Source: Sphagnum magellanicum
Taxonomy: Eukaryota > Streptophyta > Sphagnopsida > Sphagnales > Sphagnaceae
Assembly (NCBI GenBank): GCA_021904315.1
Contig: CM038910.1
Location: forward strand, 9,176,001-9,240,000
Reading direction: 5' to 3'
DNA length: 64,000 nucleotides
Below are positions 12,873 through 43,957 of the stretch, piece by piece; positions within the stretch are counted from its first letter, which is position 1, and each line of letters begins with the position of its first letter. A program made the translations under genes and the position numbers. The notes under the pieces are model-generated. The model ran no database searches and was not told the DNA's origin. It was given only the letters and a program-made list of their open reading frames with translations.

Positions 12873-15800
12873 CTATGCCACCAAACTTTTTGATGCAATT
12901 TCGTAGACATTGTCTGAAAGACCATTGGTGCTTGTTATCCGTTCAAGCTGAGCCTTGGCTGCTGCTTGTCTACCTTCATCAAACCGACGCCACCTAGAGA
13001 AAGGTGACACCATCCGTGCAGCCACCTGTGGATTGAGTTTGTCCAGCTGAAGCACTACATCCGCCACCAGTGCATACCCTGATCCATCCTTTGCATGGAA
13101 ATTGACTGCTGATGAGCAGAAAGCTCCAATTAAGGAATAGACTTTGTTAGGATTACGGATGTCAAAAGCAGGATGCTCAAGAAGTTTGCGCACTTGTTCC
13201 ACATTTCCTGGGATGTCCGACATTGCTTGCAATGCCAACCACTTATTAGTCACCAGATTATCTCCCTTGTACTGGTCATAAAAGTTTGCAAGAACATCAG
13301 ATCGTGTTTCCCCAGGGTTTTGGGAAAGGGCAGCTAGGGCAGCAACCTTATCAGTTAAGTTGGAGGCTGTTTTGTACTGATGTAGAGCAAGATCTGTGAG
13401 GGCAGGTTCATCCAAAGATACCAAGTAAGCAAGTGCTGAATTCTTCAATGACCGGGGAGCCCTGTGTTTGTGAGTAGGGTCATATGGTTCTGCACTGGGA
13501 TTAGTCTTCACTGCTTTCAGCAGCTCCTGACGCAGGTTTGATGCAATCTGTTTGATGATAAACCGACGGACTTCATGGATGGCATCAGGATCTGCTACTG
13601 GCATGAGGTCAGCCACCTCACTCTCTCCTGGCAATGTCAAAGCCTTTGCTACAAACTCCTTGTCCAGCGAGGAATCAATGAGAATGCTGCGGAGTCCTTC
13701 AATAAAAGCATCATCTACGCTCAGCTTCTCCCCTTTCTGCTGAAGTGTGACCAGGTTCAGTATAAGTTTACGGCCTAGTGTCTGCCCAGCCTCCCACCGA
13801 TTGAACTGATCTGAGTCATGGGCCAAAAGGAAGAAGAGATCTTTATCTGAAATGTCAGAAACAAGGCGCACAGGGGCACTGAAATTCCGCAGGAGTGATG
13901 CCACTGGCTTCTCTTTGACATCCAAAAATGTGAACTCTTGCTCTGCCTTATCAACTCGAAGAACAGCTGTTGTGACAGAGCTGCCATCTGGATTGGAAAA
14001 GTTATGCAGAGAGGCCCCTTCCTTCACAGACGACAGGCTCAAATCATGCCCTTTAGAGTCAAGAAGACCGACCGCCAGTGGGAGGAGCATGGGCTCTTTC
14101 TCTGGTTGCCCTGGGGTTGGTGGTACCTCCTGTCGGCACTTAATTGTGAAGGTTTGAGCTTCAGCATTGTATGACGTTGTCACAGTCAACACAGGGGTGC
14201 CAGCTTGAGAGTACCACAGTGGAAAAGTTGGGAACTTTGTTTGATTAGCATCGAACATGGCAGCCAGGAACTCTTCACAAGTCACAGCTTGCCCATCATG
14301 ACGTTTGAAATACAGATCCATGCCCTTGCGAAAGCCAGCCTTCCCTAACAACGTCTGATACATACGAACAACCTCTGCACCTTTCTCATATACTGTAACT
14401 GTGTAGAAGTTGTCCATCTTGATGTAAGAGTGTGGACGTACTGGATGTGCCATGGGGCCAGCATCCTGTGAGAACTGGGAAATACGCAGCCGGCAGACAT
14501 CAGCAATTCGCTTTACACCACGGCTACCCATATCAGAAGAAAACTCCTGATCCCTAAACACTGTGAGCCCTTCTTTCAGACTAAGCTGGAACCAGTCACG
14601 GCAAGTCACCCTATTACCAGTCCAATTGTGGAAGTACTCATGCCCAATAACACCCTCAATCGCACCAAAGTCTGCATCCGTGGCAGTCTGTGGTGATGCC
14701 AGCACCAACTTAGAGTTGAAAATATTGAGGCTTTTATTCTCCATGGCTCCCATATTGAAGTCAGGCACAGCAACGATATTGAACAGGTCCAAATCATACT
14801 CCAATCCAAACACTTCCTCATCCCATTTCATTGCTGCCTTTAGTGACTCCATTGCATATTCCGTCTTTGGAACATCTTCTGCTGGTGTCCAGATGCGGAG
14901 TAAAACTTGGCGTCCTGAACAGGTGGTGAAGGTGTCATCCCGGCTCACAAGTTGTCCAGCAACCAGTGCAAAAAGGTAGCATGGCTTTCTGAATGGGTCT
15001 TCCCACACTGCATAGTGCTTGCCATCAGTAAGTTTACCCTGATCAACTAAGTTGCCATTTGATAACAAAACAGGGTAAAGTTTTTGATCTGCCTCAATGC
15101 GTGTGGTGAACTTTGACATCACATCAGGCCGGTCCTGATAGTACGTAATCTTGCGGAAGCCCTCTGCTTCACACTGAGTGCAAAAGTTGCCACTTGACTT
15201 GTACAGGCCCTCCAGTGATGTGTTATTCTGCGGCTCAATCTCAGTAACAATCTCCAGATCAAATGGAGTTGATGGCACAGATGCCAGTGTCAGATGTCTA
15301 GCTGAAACTGTGATTTTGTCATCTCCAAGTTTCTGACCATTTATCTTCACTGAAACCAACTTAAGGTTTTCGCCATCCAGAACCAAGGGGCTTTTGCCAC
15401 CTGTAGTCTTTGGGATGACATGGATAGAGGATGTCACAACAGTATGCTCCTCTCCCAGTTGAAACTTAAGATTCAATGTCTCAAAGGCAAAGCTGGGAGC
15501 CTTGTAGTCCTTGAGAAATATCTCTTTAGGAGCCTCCTTGATCATGATGTCCTCTGCTGTTGATGATAGAGATTGTGCTGCTACACTGCAATGCACCCTC
15601 CCAGACAATGCTGGAATTATGCCTCTCAAGTCCCGCAAATCACTACCAATACACGTACGGGAAGAAAGCCCCTCAAGGCCTCTGTGGAAAGACTTTATGT
15701 CCAATGTAATGCAGGTGGCAGGTTTCCTCCTTGGGGTTTGTGAAGAAGAATTCCTCTTGAAGTGTGAAGGGTGGGACCGGCTGCAGGATTGAAGAAGAGA

Positions 15801-15959
15801 ACGCCTGAGGGAAGAACGTGGAAGATGTGCAAACACGCTCAAGTAAGCCAAAGGTAGGAAAGACAAGGAAGAAGAAGAAGAAGCTGCTGCAGCAGCAGCA
15901 GAGGTACAAATAGCAGCAGGAGTAGAGCAACACGCAGGAGACATAGCCGCCATCACCAT
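12873..15959 (-). CDS. M1 family zinc aminopeptidase (aminopeptidase N type), plastid-targeted, intronless
   Basis: Removes N-terminal amino acids from peptides; in plants this family is thought to act in chloroplast and cytosolic peptide turnover. The 1028-residue protein matches plant M1 peptidases from end to end. Residues 1-110 are rich in Ala, Ser and Arg, as in a transit peptide. The GAMEN substrate motif is at 404-408. The zinc site HEYFH is at 440-444 (ligands H440 and H444, catalytic E441), with the third ligand E463 in SLKEGLT. The C-terminal helical domain ends in KSLVA and then TAG, matching the usual C-terminus. The start MVMAAMSP is chosen because the transit-like sequence begins there; the frame stays open to an ATG at 16097, and ATGs at 15953 and 15944 are alternatives. 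The gene has no introns, unlike both other host genes here (10 and 17 exons), so it may be a retrocopy or an intron-loss allele. Nothing looks broken. Confidence 0.96.
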
Positions 15960-17740
15960 GCCCTGCACTCTGCCTGCCCCAAAATACCTATAGCCCCTGT
16001 ACATTTCACTGCCCCTTCGGTTCACTATTTTTAAGGTGAAGCATAAGACTCCCTCCCTATCTATAAAAAGCCTTAAGAGATTGCATTGCAATCTCAACTA
16101 GAGCACAAACTTGCCTTTGAGGGATTAAAAGGATTTGAGCCTTTCTTGAGCAATACTTACGTATCTGTCAAGCCTGCAAGTCTTTTCACATTCTTGATTG
16201 GTCATCAGATGACTAGGGAGAAAGCAGAACGACCCCAACTCCTGAAGCTTTATTTTTTCTTACTGTATTGTGGCTCGGGAAGATTCAGTTAAAATGCAAA
16301 GCCTTCAGAAGGAGAAACCTTAATGCACACCTGTGGAAGAAAGTCTAGAAAGCTGTGACAAAACCTTATTGCCACTCAGTGCAACGCCTCTCTCTACTTA
16401 TGACAGGAGCAAGTAAGAATATGATGAATTTGCTCAGCGCTTCAGTGCTTCATAATCTCACTTGCTGCATCCAGTTCCAGCAACATGGCCTAACAACTGA
16501 CCTAGTAGCCCAAGAGTTTGCATAGTCCTTCAACCCACCCCAACAGCAAAAAATTGCTTTCTATGTAAGCGCAAGACAAGGAAAAACAGATTAGGGTTCC
16601 TGACTGGACAACTGAAGGTGTGATCCAGTTGAACCAGGAATGAAAACCTCTGACCTGATGGCAGTCGTGACAGTTGCTCCACAACACCAGCTTTGTCTTT
16701 TCCCTTGCTCTGCTAGAATGCCAGAAAATCCTGCTACATAAGCCCAGCCAGCAAACACAGAAAATTAGCTCTGCAAACCAGTAGCTATGGATTTTCTCAT
16801 CCACATTCTTTAACTCCTCATCATTCTGGATCGAACTTGCATCATAAGCCTACAACAGACCTCATTGCTTTGCCATTACACAGCAAGAAAGACGACAACT
16901 CCAGTCAAACAACCAAGAATCCAAAAGAAAAGAAAAACTTTGTAACATCTCAAGACACTGGAGAAATCTCTCTCCACAAAAACAAATTTCAAGGTAAAAA
17001 CATGGCAATGAGTGCAGTCACAAAACCGACCTAATGAGAGTCAGCAGCAAAACTCAGAAGAAACAAAAACAAACACAAAGAACAGTTTGAATGATCGTTG
17101 CAAAACTGGAGAGAAAGAAATAGTAGCAAAAGGATTCCGCAACTACAACAACAACGCCGTACCTATCTATCGTCGGGAAGACCAGTTACAGGAGGAACAA
17201 GAAGAAAACAAAAACAGACTAAAAAATATTTGAAAAAAAAAAAAAAAACAGACAGACAAACAAAACCTTAAGAGAAAAGAAGAAAAACGATTATGGCTGG
17301 CATGTATACTACTTCCTATTCTTTTGTTTGCCGGAGTGAATGTGTGTTATGACAGACAGACAGACAGACAGACAAACCTCCTCAGAGTCCCCTAGTCTAT
17401 AACTCCTGCAAAACATTCTCGACACAGTGCAGCAGCAGGAGCAACAGAGGAACAAAAAACAAACAAACAAACAGACCTCTTTGTCCCAACGCAGATCTTG
17501 TCTTCTCGTCGGTTCTGCCTCGGGGTGCAAGGCCAGGACTATGAAATCTCCCGTCAGCTGCAACCGCAAGAGTGAGTCTGTCTTCCGCACGCTTATGAGA
17601 TCCCTGCAACGCACACAACAGGAACAAACTAATCTCTTCTTCTTCTCGTCTTCTTCGTCTCTACACTAAAGCAAGACGCAAATGCAGAGTCGTAAAGAAA
17701 AAGCGATAGGCGTACAGGAGTATCTCTTGCATGCGTTGTT
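15960..17740 (-). promoter_or_regulatory. Upstream/leader region of the M1 aminopeptidase gene
   Basis: About 1.8 kb with no gene. Near the start codon it contains in-frame open sequence. Farther upstream it is purine-rich on the plus strand, with a GACA microsatellite at about 17351-17374 and ACAA/AAAC repeats at 17440-17475. A CAG just before the ATG (TGCAGGGCATGG on the minus strand) could be a splice acceptor of a leader intron, but it lacks a good polypyrimidine tract. Confidence 0.4.
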
Positions 17741-33514: not shown

Positions 33515-34253
33515 GAATTCTTCTTTGATTCATCCATCTTATTCTTCCACCCCCCGCATTTGCAGCAGTTCACCAACAGGAGAATCTTTTGTGCTTGCAA
33601 CCCTCCCCATCACACTTCAACAAAAAAAACTTTGGGAAGCCAATGAGGAAGAGGTGGACACAATTTGCCTTTAGCCAGTTTGCCAGTGATTATCCGAGAC
33701 ATTTTTGATGAGAAGCTCAGAATGCAAAGCTTCTTGTAGTTTAGTTGACTGAATTTTAAGGTAGAAGTAGGTTAGAAAGAAGGTACCGGAAGAAAAATAT
33801 TTGGCTTTGGGATTTTGTAGAAATCCCCCCCTTTTTTTCCATTTGTATGGATTTAGGGTTGGGGGATTTCGGGGTTAATGTTTTGCAGGGATATGTTTGT
33901 GGATGTTCTGGTATTGCTTTTGGAGGAGACAACCCCATGGCCTTCAATTTCTTAGGATGATTTGTTTTCCTAGACAATATCACTGTGTGTGACTTTGAAT
34001 TGTTAGTCTTTTCTTGGACTTAATTCTTACAATACTTTTAATTGACATTATGATTTGTAGTGTCGATAAATTCTTCTTGTGACAACAAATTTTTTAAACC
34101 AGGCTATTATAGTAAACTGGTGAGACTTGTGCTGTTGGCCCAAGTATATGTTAAACACCAAACCTCTTGGAAGATCACCCATTCTGATATTATGGCAATC
34201 AAAGTGGTGCTTAACTTTAGAGTTCTTATGGAACCTTACTAAATTAATTTTAA
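33515..34253 (+). other. 3' flank of the CHY/RING gene up to the Helitron insertion
   Basis: Non-coding DNA after the stop codon, probably including the 3' untranslated region. It ends at the A preceding the CTAG terminus of the Helitron at 34254. Confidence 0.5.
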
Positions 34254-34283
34254 CTAGTGGTAACCCGTGCCTGCAAGGCACAG
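34254..34283 (-). other. Helitron 3' terminus of the small element
   Basis: Shares CGGGTTACCACTAG with the large element. The hairpin arms GTGCC and GGCAC flank a 5-nt loop. Confidence 0.75.
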
Positions 34284-35034
34284 ACGGTTTTCAAGTGTGG
34301 CACATTTCAAGTGGTTGTAAGGTTATTTCAAACTTGGAACACCCACTAAGTCGGAGCTAAAATAAAAGTCTGGCTAAAATATGGAGGAAGGAGGTATCCA
34401 TCCATCCATCCACTCATTCATCCATTCATCCCAAGGTTGAGGGACCCTTATAAGAGACCTTACAAACCCAAACCCTCCCTTGCTAATGTGCCTTATCTCC
34501 AATTTTTTCATCACTCCTTGAAACAAATATTTGTCGGAGAAAGAAAACCCCCAAAAGAAAAAGAAGGGTGCTCAGAGCAGCCGGAGGGCCCCATTTCTCA
34601 GTGTGAAAAAATATGTCTCCACCAAGAGACCCCTCCCCGTTCGTCCCCCCCAAAGCAACGTCCTTTAGAGTCGGACGGGCTCGGCACCGAGCACACGGCA
34701 ATATTGTTTATTCTCTGTCCAATGGTCTCTCGCCTCCTCACCCACCGGTTCCCCCTCCCCCCCAACGGTCCATCCCACCCCATGTGTAACTTCCCAGCTC
34801 ACCACTTTTACCCCAACATGATACTTACCCCTGAAAAACATCATTCCACCCATCCGATTCCCGATCCAACGCTCCTAACTCACTTTATCACATCTTTATT
34901 CCTCTCCCCCCCCAGGATAACTTAAAGTAAGTTAAAATAAGATAAAGACAGACGGTAATAACTGTCATGTTGTTGGGGAGATAAGTAAAAGACAGACTAA
35001 CACACTGACAGATGTAGTGAATTAATATATAGGA
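34254..35034 (-). mobile_element. Non-autonomous Helitron (0.78 kb)
   Basis: On the minus strand the 5' end reads TCCTATATATTAATTC (from 35034) and the 3' end reads GGGTTACCACTAG (ending 34254), preceded by a small hairpin with GTGCC/GGCAC arms. A T follows on the minus strand, as expected for insertion between A and T. The 5' subterminal GTCTGTC words resemble those of the neighbouring large element. Inside are a TCCA/TTCA tetranucleotide repeat (about 34396-34430) and a GC-richer stretch with a 162-codon plus-strand frame lacking family motifs, possibly captured host DNA. It abuts the next Helitron with no base between them. Confidence 0.8.
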
Positions 35035-35060
35035 CTAGTGGTAACCCGTGCTGGCACGGC
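35035..35060 (-). other. Helitron 3' terminus with palindromic hairpin
   Basis: The hairpin at 35047-35060 has a perfect 6-bp GC-rich stem. It is followed after 8 bases by the CTAG end, the expected termination signal for rolling-circle transfer. Confidence 0.85.
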
Positions 35061-35200: not shown

Positions 35201-35322
35201 AACACCGGTTTACATCGGATCACACTGGGCCAGAGTGATTCAGCACCCACCGGCGCACCATCCATCCACTGGATGCTTGAACACCGGTTTCCATCGGATC
35301 ACACTGGGCCAGAGTGATTAAG
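35201..35322. repeat. 79-bp tandem repeat in the Helitron 3' region
   Basis: The 43-bp block beginning AACACCGGTTT and continuing through ATCGGATCACACTGGGCCAG starts at 35201 and again at 35280 with one or two substitutions. Confidence 0.85.
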
Positions 35323-35327
35323 AAGAA

Positions 35328-38300
35328 TCACTGCAGCACCTCGTGGTAGACCACATTACTGGTGTAAACGCCAGCAGGGGCCCCATTCAGAGCCGCCCTG
35401 CTGCCACCCCGAACTAGCACCCGGACGCCCCGCCGTGAGCCACACCGAGAGAAAGCCACATAAAGCTACCTGTGGCAAAAAACAGGCTTGGGCAGGTACA
35501 CCCCCACTGTCTGCAGTGTCTGCCCCTGGAACTTATTGATAATCATGGCAAATGCGGGCCGCAACGGGAACTGCCGCCGGCGGAGAGTAAAAGGCATCTT
35601 CTCCATGTAAGAGGGAATGATGCTAAGGCGGGGAATGAAAACGCGCCTGCCCTTGTCCGGTCCTGTGGCAATCTCAACATCAATTATGTGCTGCATCAAC
35701 TTGACCACAATAAGCCGAGTGCCATTTGTAAGGCTGCTCGGCATATTCCGCAATAAAATCATCGGGCAGCCTTCCTGCAAGGTTAAAGTGTGGGGTGGCA
35801 CCCCTGACATGCTGAGGGAGTTTAAAAACTCGGTGGGGTAAACCCCTCTCTGTTCGCCTTGCACAATAGAATCAGCGCTATGGTACGTGCGGCGCTATGC
35901 TGGTGTGCCGTCAGGTGTGGTGAGGTTAAACCGATTCATGATGACGGTGTTGATGCTGTCAACGCCCTCGTTCAGAGGAGTTAAAATGGCCCTCTGAATG
36001 ATGTGCTCATTGCGTGACTACGAGTTTGTGAAGCGGCCAAGGTCGCCATAAACTTCAACCACAAGGCTATCAATGGTGTCACCCTTGCAGCACATGTTTT
36101 CTGGGATCAAAATAGCCTCCTCCCCAACCTCAGGAAAGACTTGCTTTGTGCCTTCCCCAATGCGTTGCAAGTAGTCTGCCCAAGCTTGTTGTAGTTAGGC
36201 ATCGGTCGCGGCATTGGTTCCGCCTTATGCCAAAAGCCTTTGAACACGCATGTTTTCATGCAATTGACACATTTTAACACGATGCCAAAGGACTACGGAC
36301 CTCTTGAGACTGGCATCCACAATCTGGCCTCTCCTGCCCCGAGGAACCACAGGCAATATTTGCCTAAAATCACCTCCCATGATAACAACCTTGCCCCCAA
36401 AAAGCATGTCCTTTAAGGCAGGGTCAACAACACCCATAACATGCTAGAGCGTGCGGTTCATAGCCTCAAACACATGCTTGTGGGCCATGGGTGCCTCATC
36501 CCACACAATGAGGCGTGCAGCTCGAATCAAGGCCGCTTGTGGATTGTTCAGGGGAACATAGCAAGCAGAGGAGCCATAAAGGCCTGCTACGGGAATTTTG
36601 AAACGTGAGTGAGCTATGCAGCCGCCCTCCAAAAGTAGGGCTACAATGCTAGAAGATGCCACCGACAACGCTATGTCACCAGTAGAGCGCACCCTGCTGA
36701 GTAAGCACTTGTAGAGGAAAGTCTTACCAGCCCCTCCCAGCCCATCAACAAAAAAGGTTTTGTCGAGCGGCCTGGGGTCATGGACCGCGTCAATGACATT
36801 GTCGTAAATGGAGCGCTGGTGCTGATTTAGCAAAGGCACATCCCGAGTAAGCTATTGAGCTTGCCACGTCACATTGTACCTGGCCCGTTCCTCGGATATA
36901 GCGGCGTCCCCCGGGGCAGCCAGTTGTGCAGGGATTGGCAGTTCAAAATCCTCTAGGGTTTTCCCCCCTTGGGCCTACAACAGCTGCTCCACTTCCCGCA
37001 AGCCTTGGTCAAGGATGGCCTGGTCCAGCTGCCGGTTGGGCGTTACCTGCGTAACGAAATCGGGGTAAGACTCAGTAAATGAAATGTGCGAAATGATGCT
37101 AAGGGATCAGCTTTCTGGTACATTGAATCCAACAATCGGCCAATCAATAGAGAAGTTTCCAGGCATTAGTTCAAAAAAGACAACAGAGCACAACTTATAC
37201 CATCACAACCCAACGAAAGGGAGGCTTACAATATACACTTCCTTTGTGGAGGCCTTTTGGCCACTCACCTGGCGTGCTTGGTGTAGGAAATCCTCTGTAA
37301 GGGCTCCCTTATGATTGTCCCATAACCGCCCAGGATTGGTGACGTTGTTGAAAATTAACAGGTTGGCAAAAAGTTGCCGTAAGCTTCTGGGCAGTTGCAC
37401 GCCAGTAGGTTTTGAAAGGCACTGGTCCCATTCATCATCATCTTGTAACAAGCCACGTGCAAGGCAAGCAACTTTAAAAGTGGGGTGCATAATTGTGGTA
37501 GGCGTGTGGGGCTGGTGGGTAGTTCTGAGGTCCTCAAAGCATGTGGCCCTTGCAATGTGGGTAAGCAAAACTCGCAAATAATAACGTTCGCCCTCCGAGG
37601 GTTGCACAAAATACATGCGCCCCACAGTTCCCAATGTGACATGATTGTTTCGGCCTGCACCCCGCCGCCCCACTACCCTTTTCCGAAGGTGCCACGCCTT
37701 TTTGGATTTGCTCCACACAGCGATTTCGGGATAATCAGGGTAGAGTGTGGTCAGCGCAGCAGGTAGTGGCGGTGCAGGGTCGTTATTGTTACGAGCCAAA
37801 ATGGATGCAGCCGCATATTCAGATTTGGCCTTTCGGTTGAAGTCACACCACCCAGTCAAAGTGGTGGAGTTGTTGCGCATCATGGCTTCCCCAACCGTGG
37901 TCCCCTCGGGAAAGTAAGTGGTCTGCTCATTAGGCAGATGAACAGCCAAGCGGTAAACATTGGGGTGCATGCCGTGCAAGTCAAAGGCAAAAAACCGATG
38001 GCAAGCTTTGCTGGCACTCACATACCGCCCATCGAGGTAATTTTGGACTTCATCCTGGGCGGCAGGCACATTGTTCCCATCGGCCCCACCTACAGCCGCC
38101 TGAGGTGCTATAGCCGGTAGAGCCCCAGCTTCTAGCTGCACCACTGCCAAAGCACGGTCATGACCCTTGTAAACATACTTGTAAAGGTATTTCACAGTCG
38201 TGATGGAGCTGCAGACCTCAACATTGATGTGCCACTGGTACTGCATGGTCAGGTAGGGGTTGTATGAGATGACCCAACAGTTGTCAAAGACAAAGCCTAA

Positions 38301-40822
38301 ACTACAAGGGGGAGGGGGCAGCAACAAAAAGTTGTTAATCACCAGGGCAGACTCAGACATAAACACTTATGGTTAGGTGCACAGGACAGCAATTCACTTG
38401 CCAAATTTCCAACAGCTGCACTTACGTGGGGTGGGTGAAGGTCCTACCGTCGTCTCGTTGCCGGTAGGTTGGGTAGTTGCCGGTGGAGTCCTTAGTTTGG
38501 GGCTGGAAAGTCTTGGGATAACCCTTGTTGCAAGCCCCATTCAACATGCAAGCACATGAGGGATGTAAGGCCCCACAGGGCCCATGCAACTTGCGAGATG
38601 TCACAATGTTGTAAAGCTTGGGGTGGGTGGATTTGTCTGGAAGTTCGGCACACACGATCCGGTCATAATCGCTGCTGTCACACGGCTTGTTATGGCTGCG
38701 TAGAATGATCAAAATGTGACCGTGCGGCAAGCCCCGCTTCTGCCATTCTACCACATGGATGTCCGCCACCGCAGTGCCCAAAACACCATTCTGCAGAAGG
38801 TCTTGGAAGAGGGCATTGAGTTTCATGTTGAACACCTTGGATGTCAAGTCAGGGCGGCCGCTGGCTTCTTCCCCAGGCTTCAGCTCATGCAAAATCTCTG
38901 GCCAATTTGGGTTGCACGTCATGGTTATGAATAGGTCAAGTTTCCCAAACTTTCTAACCAAGGCCATGGAATCTTGGTAGAGCTAGTTCCTGTGGTAGGG
39001 GCTACCAACAAAAGTGGTTGGAAGGACCACCATGCGCCCAAAGTTGGTGCTGTTAGCCCCATCTTGTTGCATGGCATCTACCATTCCTTTATATTGGTCA
39101 GCACGCAGGGTGGTCTGGTTAAGGCGCACCCACCCCAGCTACTGCCCCTTAACCTTGGAGTACTGGTCAACCACCCACTCTTGATATAGCCTCTTGCCAT
39201 AAGTGAACGTGCTATTGGTGGGAGGGTTGCGGTCATGCATGAAATAAGCCGCGTACTCCCTGGCAGTAACCTTGCGAGCAATGCGCCCTGCGGCAGCTCC
39301 TCTACCTCAGCCCCTACCCTACCCCTGCCCCTACCTCCACCACGCCCGGGGTCCACTGCCGGTTCTGCATCAAGCTGCTATTCATCTTCAGATGGCTGCT
39401 GTTGCTCGTCCTCAGAACTTAGCCCATCCATAACCGCAGGGGTAGCGCTAGTAATATTTGGGTGCTAGCTGGGCTCTCCGTGTGGGTGGAACAAGACAAA
39501 ATGCAGAGGGTCATAAGCATAGTGGGCATCACTAATCCTCCATAACCCCCCGCCCTTAGCTCTCACCCTGATGTCTCGTGGATTGCTATCACCATCGCCT
39601 GTGAACATGCACAAAAGGGAAGACAAATCAAGCACAGCCGGGACAGTTGCTTAGATGGTGGAAGGAACGTATTGTCGAGGAACATAGGAATTAGGACGGC
39701 GAGCACCATAAAAAACAACACAAAATGGGGCACCAAAAAGCAGCCATGCAACCACCCCATTCACTCACCAGGCATCAAGCCGGCCACTTCGCTGGATGTG
39801 GGGGCGTTATAGCAACGGCGGTTAACGCTGCCATCAACACGGATGATAATATCATAGTTAGCCAGGTCTTGAGGGGGCAAATCCATGGCCTGCACAAAGC
39901 GCTGAACATAGCCATTGCTCCCCAAAAACATCTGTTGCAACTCCTGTAAAGTGTGACGGTCCAAGTCTACGTTGCCTTGACCGAGAGCAGCAAAACGGGC
40001 AACAGCTTGAGCATCCGCATTGTCTATGATATACAACTAAACAAACTGATGGGGGCTCCCTTTAGGAGGTGTCAATGGCTGTAGCAAATGATGCATAACG
40101 CCCCTTATGGCAATCATACTGACCCCATCTGCGGGTGATTGGATGTTAATGCTAGAGGAGGCCATCTGCAAGGAGGAATTATATTTCCGGATGTGCTTGC
40201 GAAAAGATACGATGGCAGGGGGGAGGTGTGCACCAGGGGCAGGCTTAGAAGTGAACAGGTCTCGCAATGGTTAAAGAGGAAGAATGGGGAAGAGGGCCTC
40301 ATAGCTGCAAGATCTGCCTTTAGCACAGCAAAGGTCTGCATGTCCCCGGGAAGCCTCATCAGGCCAAATCATAGCTCGGCAATGCTGGCACTCAGCTATC
40401 CTACCCCCTATGTTAAGCACCGGAACAATGGCCTCATTAAATTCTGAAGGGGGGACGCAGGCTGCTGTGTGCAAATCTTGCTGACCTCGCGCCTGCCAGT
40501 GCTGCTCGCGGTTGCGGTTTCGCTGCTGCTGCTCCTGGTCTGTCAATCGGGCACGAGCCTCTGCCTATTGCTTGCGGTTGCGGCGTCGCTTCTGCTGCCA
40601 CTCCTGGTCTGTAAGCCGGGCACGGGCTTCCGCCTGCTGCTCGCGGTGGCGACGTCGCTCCTACTGCCACTCCTGGTCTATGAGCCGGGCACGGGCCTCT
40701 GCGTGCTGCTCGTGGTTGCGGTCTCGCTGTTGCTGTCGCTCCTGGTCTGTCAGCCGGGCACGGGCCTCTGCGTGCTGCTCGCGATCGCGGTCTCGCTGCT
40801 GCTGCCAGGTTGCGATGGACAT
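35328..40822 (-). pseudogene. Helitron RepHel (HUH replication initiator plus PIF1-like helicase), interrupted by TAG/TAA
   Basis: Four exons can be joined: 40822-39769, 39598-38426, 38301-37230 and 37046-35328, about 1,672 codons. The introns are GT-AG (170, 124 and 183 nt) and restore frame. In order: an Arg/Gln-rich repeat region; a Cys/His N-terminal finger (about 40390-40340); the Rep domain with HUH as PHGH at 38716-38727 and the two-Tyr motif YLYKYVYKG near 38163-38190; then a PIF1-type helicase with Walker A GLGGAGKT (36720-36743), Walker B VWDEAP (about 36490-36510), GGDFRQILP and a final NKFQGQTL motif. Thirteen in-frame TAG (+ strand starts 35466, 35895, 36018, 36444, 36852, 36975, 38983, 39139, 39378, 39465, 40037, 40565, 40661) and three TAA (36195, 36225, 40271) interrupt it. 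One 1-nt deletion lies near 39300-39320. It ends at TGA (35328). Read in the standard code it cannot make a full protein. Confidence 0.9.
40490..40815 (-). repeat. 69-bp tandem repeat coding a 23-residue charged unit
   Basis: Four or more units with exact 69-bp spacing (anchor CGGGCACG at about 40547, 40616, 40685, 40754). On the minus strand each encodes an Arg/Gln/Glu-rich block such as REQHAEARARLTDQE, probably a coiled coil or nucleic-acid-binding stretch at the RepHel N-terminus. Two units have TAG where the aligned sister units have CAG. Confidence 0.9.
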
Positions 40823-42868: not shown

Positions 42869-43957
42869 GTACCCATCATCTTGCATGATCCTTTTTTTTA
42901 CTCATTAGTTGGGCAGCAAACCTGTAGACTTTGCATCAACTATATTTTTTTTCTGCTATGTAAGTTCTTTGTGTGCTCTTTCACCTCTGCTTTCCTATTT
43001 ATATGAGGAAGAGAATGCATTTGTGGCTTCTTAGTACCCTGTCATTATCACTTTGGAGGATCTCAGCAAAGAGAGAAAAAGAGAGGGAGGAAAAAAAACA
43101 CACACACACACACACTTGCTCCCCAACTTACTCACTCCTATGCAGTGCTCCCCCAGGTACCGCAAAGACGTAGCAACAGCAGCAGAAGCAGCGTCTCAAA
43201 AAACTTCACGTTCTGTTCTCGTGCTCTTCAATCCAAAATCTTTGAGAAAATAATCCAGAAAAATCCAAACAAACAGCAGCTGCTGGAGGGTTTACACTAC
43301 AAGAAGACCACCCATACATTTGGGTCTTGTTCACACTTGTTCACAGACGGACACACTGATGGACGTAGTGAATTAATATATAATTTTCAACAATGAGAAT
43401 TTTTTTTAATTCAATTACTTTTTTTCTATAGGTCTGAAAAGTGTGAACGATAAATGTGTAGATTTTTTGCACCAAAAGGGGAGTGGGGGTCTAGCCCTGC
43501 GGTCTGGGAGGATTTTGACATCTAAACAAACAAGAAAAACAAGCAAACAAACAACTAGGGTAACCAGGTTGGTCATGGTACACTTAAGAAGCGCTCAGTG
43601 CTTAACAACTTCTTCATCATGCATCCATTGTAGATGGACTACAAAGACATCATAGCTTAGCTCTTGGTGCACATGGAGCTTTTTGGATCATGCAAAGCAG
43701 AGTTGGTTTGAGTGAGATATAACCAACAAAAGGGAGGGGGTTCACAAGCTTTAAAAAAATTCAGTTGGATCAGAGAAATTGCTATGAACATTCGTTGTCA
43801 GGCCTACGACCTAAGAGCAAAAGCCTCAATGATAATCAATGACACTCTCATCAACAAACTGGATGGATGTAGAAAACACACACTTCTCCCCCCTATTTAT
43901 GTACATAAATTTTCCTGTTAGCAAACCCATTCCTTCCTCAATCTCGTGCTATGTCAA

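Follow-up and report, generated by a model that had tools for sequence, protein, structure and literature searches.

Helitrons are marked by a gene in which a Rep (HUH) domain is fused to a Pif1-family helicase, and the protein of the described element Helraiser (PDB 7lcc) combines an HUH Rep domain, a tyrosine region, a Pif1-type helicase with a 2B domain and a region with a C-terminal LYVA motif. For the decay of transposons in a methylated plant genome, a paper on Welwitschia gives ~78% CG and ~76% CHG methylation (H, any base but G), with long-term deamination reflected in transposons (PMC8275611). Here we describe a Helitron in a 64,000-nucleotide stretch of Sphagnum magellanicum (assembly GCA_021904315.1, contig CM038910.1, positions 9,176,001 to 9,240,000), hereafter the window. 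The element is of the autonomous type; its RepHel gene, on the minus strand at 40822..35328, is now a pseudogene with 17 premature stops and one frameshift. The pattern of its base changes indicates that this Helitron is very probably decaying as methylcytosines in CG and CHG contexts deaminate, and that the stops at glutamine positions most likely arose by such decay and not from a different genetic code. The evidence comes from protein conservation and from the internal repeats of this single copy.

The joined RepHel frame contains 1,668 codons including the final TGA, a recount of the approximately 1,672 given in an initial annotation of the sequence, which had the strand, the coordinates, the three GT-AG introns and the TGA end right. 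Exon 1 (39769..40822, donor GTGAGTG) starts at the ATG at 40822, taken as the assumed start, and holds an array of 69-bp repeats. Intron 1 (39599..39768) leads to exon 2 (38426..39598), which carries the HUH region (HVVEWQKRGLPHGHI) and the match to PF14214 (Helitron_like_N; E = 2.5e-34 on 38425-38982). Exon 3 (37269..38301), with the tyrosine region KYLYKYVYKGHD, lies between intron 2 (38302..38425) and intron 3 (37071..37268, whose acceptor may sit slightly further in), and exon 4 (35328..37070) encodes the Pif1 helicase and ends with the TGA at 35330-35328. Pfam searches with the separate pieces also returned PF05970 (PIF1) and PF21530 (Pif1_2B_dom), and the joined protein matched Helraiser (E = 1.2e-237) in three long stretches (query residues 31-395, 458-900 and 968-1667). 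A Rep nuclease and a Pif1-type helicase are thus joined in one gene, and all the regions of Helraiser named above are present; unlike Helraiser, the window copy has 17 stops, a frameshift, 69-bp (23-amino-acid) repeats near the N-terminus and three introns. The 13 TAG, three TAA and single 1-nt frameshift of the initial annotation were recovered unchanged, together with 64 CAG, 37 CAA, 16 CGA and 21 TGG codons. Its statement that no secure TGA is present did not hold, as one premature TGA (39309-39307) lies beside the frameshift in a Gly-Arg run (39307..39318); the frame is short by one base near 39318, where an N was placed solely to keep it.

Pattern scans yielded 50 loci from prokaryote genome contigs and four from viral contigs, all 54 of which were put through tblastn. 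Six (L011, L019, L023, L032, L038 and L043), all from genome contigs, encode RepHel with E values of 1e-50 or better, five gave weak matches only (E = 0.03 to 9) and the rest none; two separate scans of viral contigs for related loci returned no relative. The six RepHel loci are probably foreign eukaryotic contigs inside bacterial bins of metagenome-assembled genomes (MAGs); the RepHel of L011 is a single uninterrupted frame of 1,636 codons. Together with Helraiser they formed a comparison set of seven distant RepHel proteins, with 24-35% identity to the query across the main matches of the relatives and 43% over 871 columns for Helraiser.

A functional recoded gene should retain the residues that are invariant among its relatives, and for this reason invariant columns separate recoding from decay. 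The strictest set comprised 169 columns invariant in at least four of the seven relatives, columns with fewer than four relatives having been dropped. The query departs in 28 of these columns, so that the intact motifs of the initial annotation stand only as far as the HUH, tyrosine, Walker A and Walker B regions being legible by eye. Fifteen of the departures are single C>T/G>A changes (12 missense and three stops) and none is T>C/A>G; the remaining 13 consist of nine transversions, one double C>T/G>A change and three multiple changes. In the 141 retained columns the two directions had nearly equal opportunities (133 for C>T/G>A vs 137 for T>C/A>G), and the excess of 15 to 0 was significant (Fisher p = 5e-5), also after removal of the stops (12 to 0, p = 4e-4). 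Five relatives served as focal controls, L043 (present in pieces) and Helraiser (no DNA) being left out; they showed nine C>T/G>A and two T>C/A>G changes in 99 differing invariant columns, a C>T/G>A share of 9/99 vs 15/28 in the query (p = 1.4e-6).

The changes also depend on context. In the invariant columns they affected 6/32 CG, 8/26 CHG and 3/92 CHH sites and, with stops left out, 11/55 CG and CHG sites taken together vs 3/92 CHH sites (p = 0.002). Both C>T and G>A occur among them, and the elevation of CG and CHG above CHH on both strands that is expected of a pseudogene decaying by deamination is present in these columns. The initial annotation had proposed C-to-T change at methylated CAG with CG sites oddly spared; the first part of this explanation is supported, whereas the sparing of CG is contradicted by the counts. 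With 80% conservation (287 columns), the query had 21 C>T/G>A and two reverse changes in 58 differing columns (CG 8/50, CHG 10/37, CHH 5/155), and with 75% conservation and at least three relatives (368 columns) it had 25 and six in 97 (CG 9/53, CHG 10/42, CHH 8/187).

The 69-bp tandem array (40500..40807, minus strand, ~4.5 copies) provides internal sister copies. Four full copies were compared by a three-of-four majority, setting aside the incomplete fifth copy and the seven of 69 columns in which no such majority existed. Departures from the majority comprised 15 C>T/G>A changes and one A>G, and eight of the 15 were judged silent by eye. In the repeats (15 to 1) as in the invariant columns (15 to 0), C>T/G>A changes outnumber the opposite ones, as expected of a methylcytosine-deamination pseudogene. 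By context, the repeat changes fell at 8/68 CHG, 2/48 CG and 1/36 CHH sites, with 4/28 at sites whose context could not be assigned. The initial annotation had two of the repeat TAGs as CAG in sister copies: the three sisters of one are CAG, CAA and CAG, those of the other CAC, CAC and CAG. Sister CAG codons together with silent CHG changes had been named there as the outcome that would refute an origin from a recoded lineage, and within the array this outcome is reached in part.

Several observations weigh against deamination as the explanation. The source codons of the query are inferred, because the relatives are so distant. At the looser cut-offs the five controls lean the same way (34 C>T/G>A vs 13 reverse changes in 272 differing columns at 80%, 47 vs 23 in 394 at 75%) and the contrast between query and controls weakens; L032 alone has 6/47 CG sites changed at the 80% cut-off, and the nine transversions of the query in invariant columns match those of the controls (6-11). 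CHG and CG do not differ significantly in the invariant columns (p = 0.36), nor does CHG exceed CG (p = 0.19) or CHH (p = 0.16) significantly within the repeats alone. Conversion of CAG to TAG (13/77) is not significantly more frequent than that of CAA to TAA (3/40, p = 0.26) or of CGA to TGA (1/17, p = 0.45), which would also be compatible with plain random pseudogene decay without methylation, the TAG excess having arisen by chance. The 15-to-0 bias in direction and the concentration at CG and CHG over CHH sites in the invariant columns argue against such decay, which we regard as very unlikely. Finally, one frameshift against ~310 implied transitions (a rough estimate) is low for neutral decay. 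Fast mutation at methylcytosine sites in a young copy would explain the low indel count and is our candidate reason for what remains a mild puzzle.

The positions of the stops bear on a further explanation, advanced in the initial annotation, that the element came by horizontal transfer from a lineage in which TAA and TAG (TAR) encode glutamine, as in some ulvophytes and ciliates, into a host with the standard code, its in-frame TAR codons being sense codons. Every relative with a residue at codons 262, 557 and 1622 carries Gln there (5/5, 7/7 and 5/5, respectively). At least one relative is aligned at 15 of the 16 TAR columns, and across these 15 Gln has the highest mean BLOSUM score (0.45), a value below the 0.87 for the 98 alignable CAA and CAG (CAR) codons. 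The reported placement of stops at Gln positions is to this extent confirmed, but it does not extend to all of them. The TAG at codon 396 (39465..39467, minus strand) occupies a column filled by W, W, W, F and Y in the relatives and is most simply a change from Trp to stop, that is, G>A in what by eye is a CTGG context, a CHG site of the opposite strand; the preceding codon 395, Gly in 5/5 relatives, is Ser in the query, which as a change from Gly is G>A at a CG site. Codon 505 is Arg in 4/7 relatives, and the other 12 of the 17 premature stops fall in variable or unaligned columns. Recoding predicts TAR codons compatible with Gln in a protein otherwise under selection, and neither the aromatic column at codon 396 nor the damaged invariant residues agree with this. 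The 12 missense changes at invariant residues, the same kind of change at silent repeat sites, and the premature TGA and frameshift all argue in the same direction, and we consider a glutamine-recoded origin highly improbable.

What recoding of a RepHel gene looks like can be seen at one of the relatives, L038 (1068-4625, minus strand of DYPS01000124.1), which lends the idea some general support in that Helitrons seem to occur in recoded genomes. Its RepHel frame of 1,186 codons, its start cut by the contig end, contains 50 TAA, 16 TAG and no TGA, is open under NCBI table 30, in which TAR stands for Glu, and gives strong Pfam matches. Glu is the best residue at both its TAA and TAG columns (0.58 and 0.62, respectively), and all three of its TAR codons in 75%-conserved columns fall on Glu; on these alignments its TAR codons are best read as Glu. 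The contig is binned as a MAG of the bacterium Desulfosporosinus but probably derives from a ciliate. In a paper on Loxodes, repeats classed as helitrons there were judged likely spurious (PMC11441545). The L038 gene thus serves as a natural positive control for the appearance of real recoding. The window copy shares in-frame TAR codons with it, but is a pseudogene and not an open frame, has fewer TAR codons (16 of 117 TAR and CAR codons vs 66 TAR in 1,186 codons), favors TAG over TAA where L038 favors TAA over TAG, and is damaged elsewhere. The query did not group with L038 in a seven-protein tree, a weak one with one of four inner branches well supported and with L019 and ulvophyte Helitrons absent. 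A mixed history, in which an element of glutamine-recoded origin subsequently decayed by methylcytosine deamination in its host, so that some TAR codons are original sense codons and others scars, appears to us scarcely credible.

U-to-C RNA editing occurs in organelles of some land plants, and most of the stops lie at sites derivable from CAR codons, so that an active gene with stops repaired in its RNA, or read through, could be imagined. To our knowledge, nuclear mRNA editing of this sort has not been described, and the missense changes at invariant residues, the frameshift and the TAG in the aromatic column would require further repairs; we consider this explanation extremely improbable. 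A process at CpA like the repeat-induced point mutation of fungi was also considered and is a poor fit, since by eye many changes lie at CG and CTG-type sites.

Under deamination at CG and CHG sites, the Helitron copy would have been silenced after insertion by plant-type cytosine methylation in these two contexts, and 5-methylcytosine would then have deaminated to thymine, turning CAG into TAG, CG-containing codons into missense codons and CTGG into CTAG. Methylation as the cause of the changes and the silencing of the copy are what we infer from their direction and context. CAG, which is used often and is at the same time a CHG site, would make TAG the predominant stop, whereas TGA could arise only by way of the few CGA codons or of TGG at slowly changing CHH positions. 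The shortage of TGA had been taken in the initial annotation as an argument against ordinary decay. Only 17 CGA or TGA codons are present (16 CGA and one TGA), which at 10-19% change per CG site leads to an expectation of 1.7-3.2 TGA and a probability of 0.48-0.14 of finding one or none; of the 21 TGG codons, the third G is in CHH context in all and the middle G in CHG in only two. Since CGA codons are few and the third G of TGG mutates slowly, most of this oddity disappears once target sites are counted. The Welwitschia paper describes long-term deamination to T alongside high CG and CHG methylation, and also stresses CHH methylation (PMC8275611); in the window copy, CG and CHG sites are hit more than CHH sites. 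This reading does away with a misleading hint that a recoded genome had been the source of a horizontal transfer, and counts of direction and context at invariant non-stop codons offer a simple way to separate recoding from methylation decay in a single copy. TAG-rich transposon genes would be expected in those methylating plants whose common Gln codon is CAG.

The host itself uses the standard code, as the initial annotation had maintained, because its M1 aminopeptidase gene (Pfam Peptidase_M1; 12873-16004, minus strand) ends in TAG and contains no internal TAR beside 41 CAR codons (17 CAA and 24 CAG). Base composition neither helps nor hurts the case for decay: observed/expected values in 36001-40000 were 0.53 for CpG and 0.90 for CHG, vs 0.10-0.65 and 0.10-1.36 in other 4-kb blocks.

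Helitrons begin with 5' TC, end in 3' CTRR after a short hairpin and insert between A and T. The probable 3' terminus (CTAGTGGTAACCCGTGC; 35035..35059, minus strand) consists of the palindrome CCGTGC-N2-GCACGG followed by CTAG, with T as the next base; single-strand folding did not single out this hairpin (z-score -0.22), although the palindrome itself is present. For the 5' end, several TC candidates occur in the sequence, none of them distinguishable without another copy. At 34253-34284 (CTAG at 34254, again followed by T), 781 bp away, lies another Helitron-like 3' terminus; it is identical to the first at 28 of 32 bases, the likeness stopping at the same border and the outer flank being different; it is perhaps a non-autonomous relative. 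A 43-nt direct repeat, 95% alike (35201-35243 and 35280-35322), lies downstream of the RepHel stop and ahead of the 3' terminus, and a 40-nt stretch at ~43343-43382 is 87.5% alike to the flank outside that terminus (34992-35031; E = 3e-7), possibly as another repeat beside the element. Directly past the RepHel start lies a piece of a PI-PLC-X exon on the plus strand.

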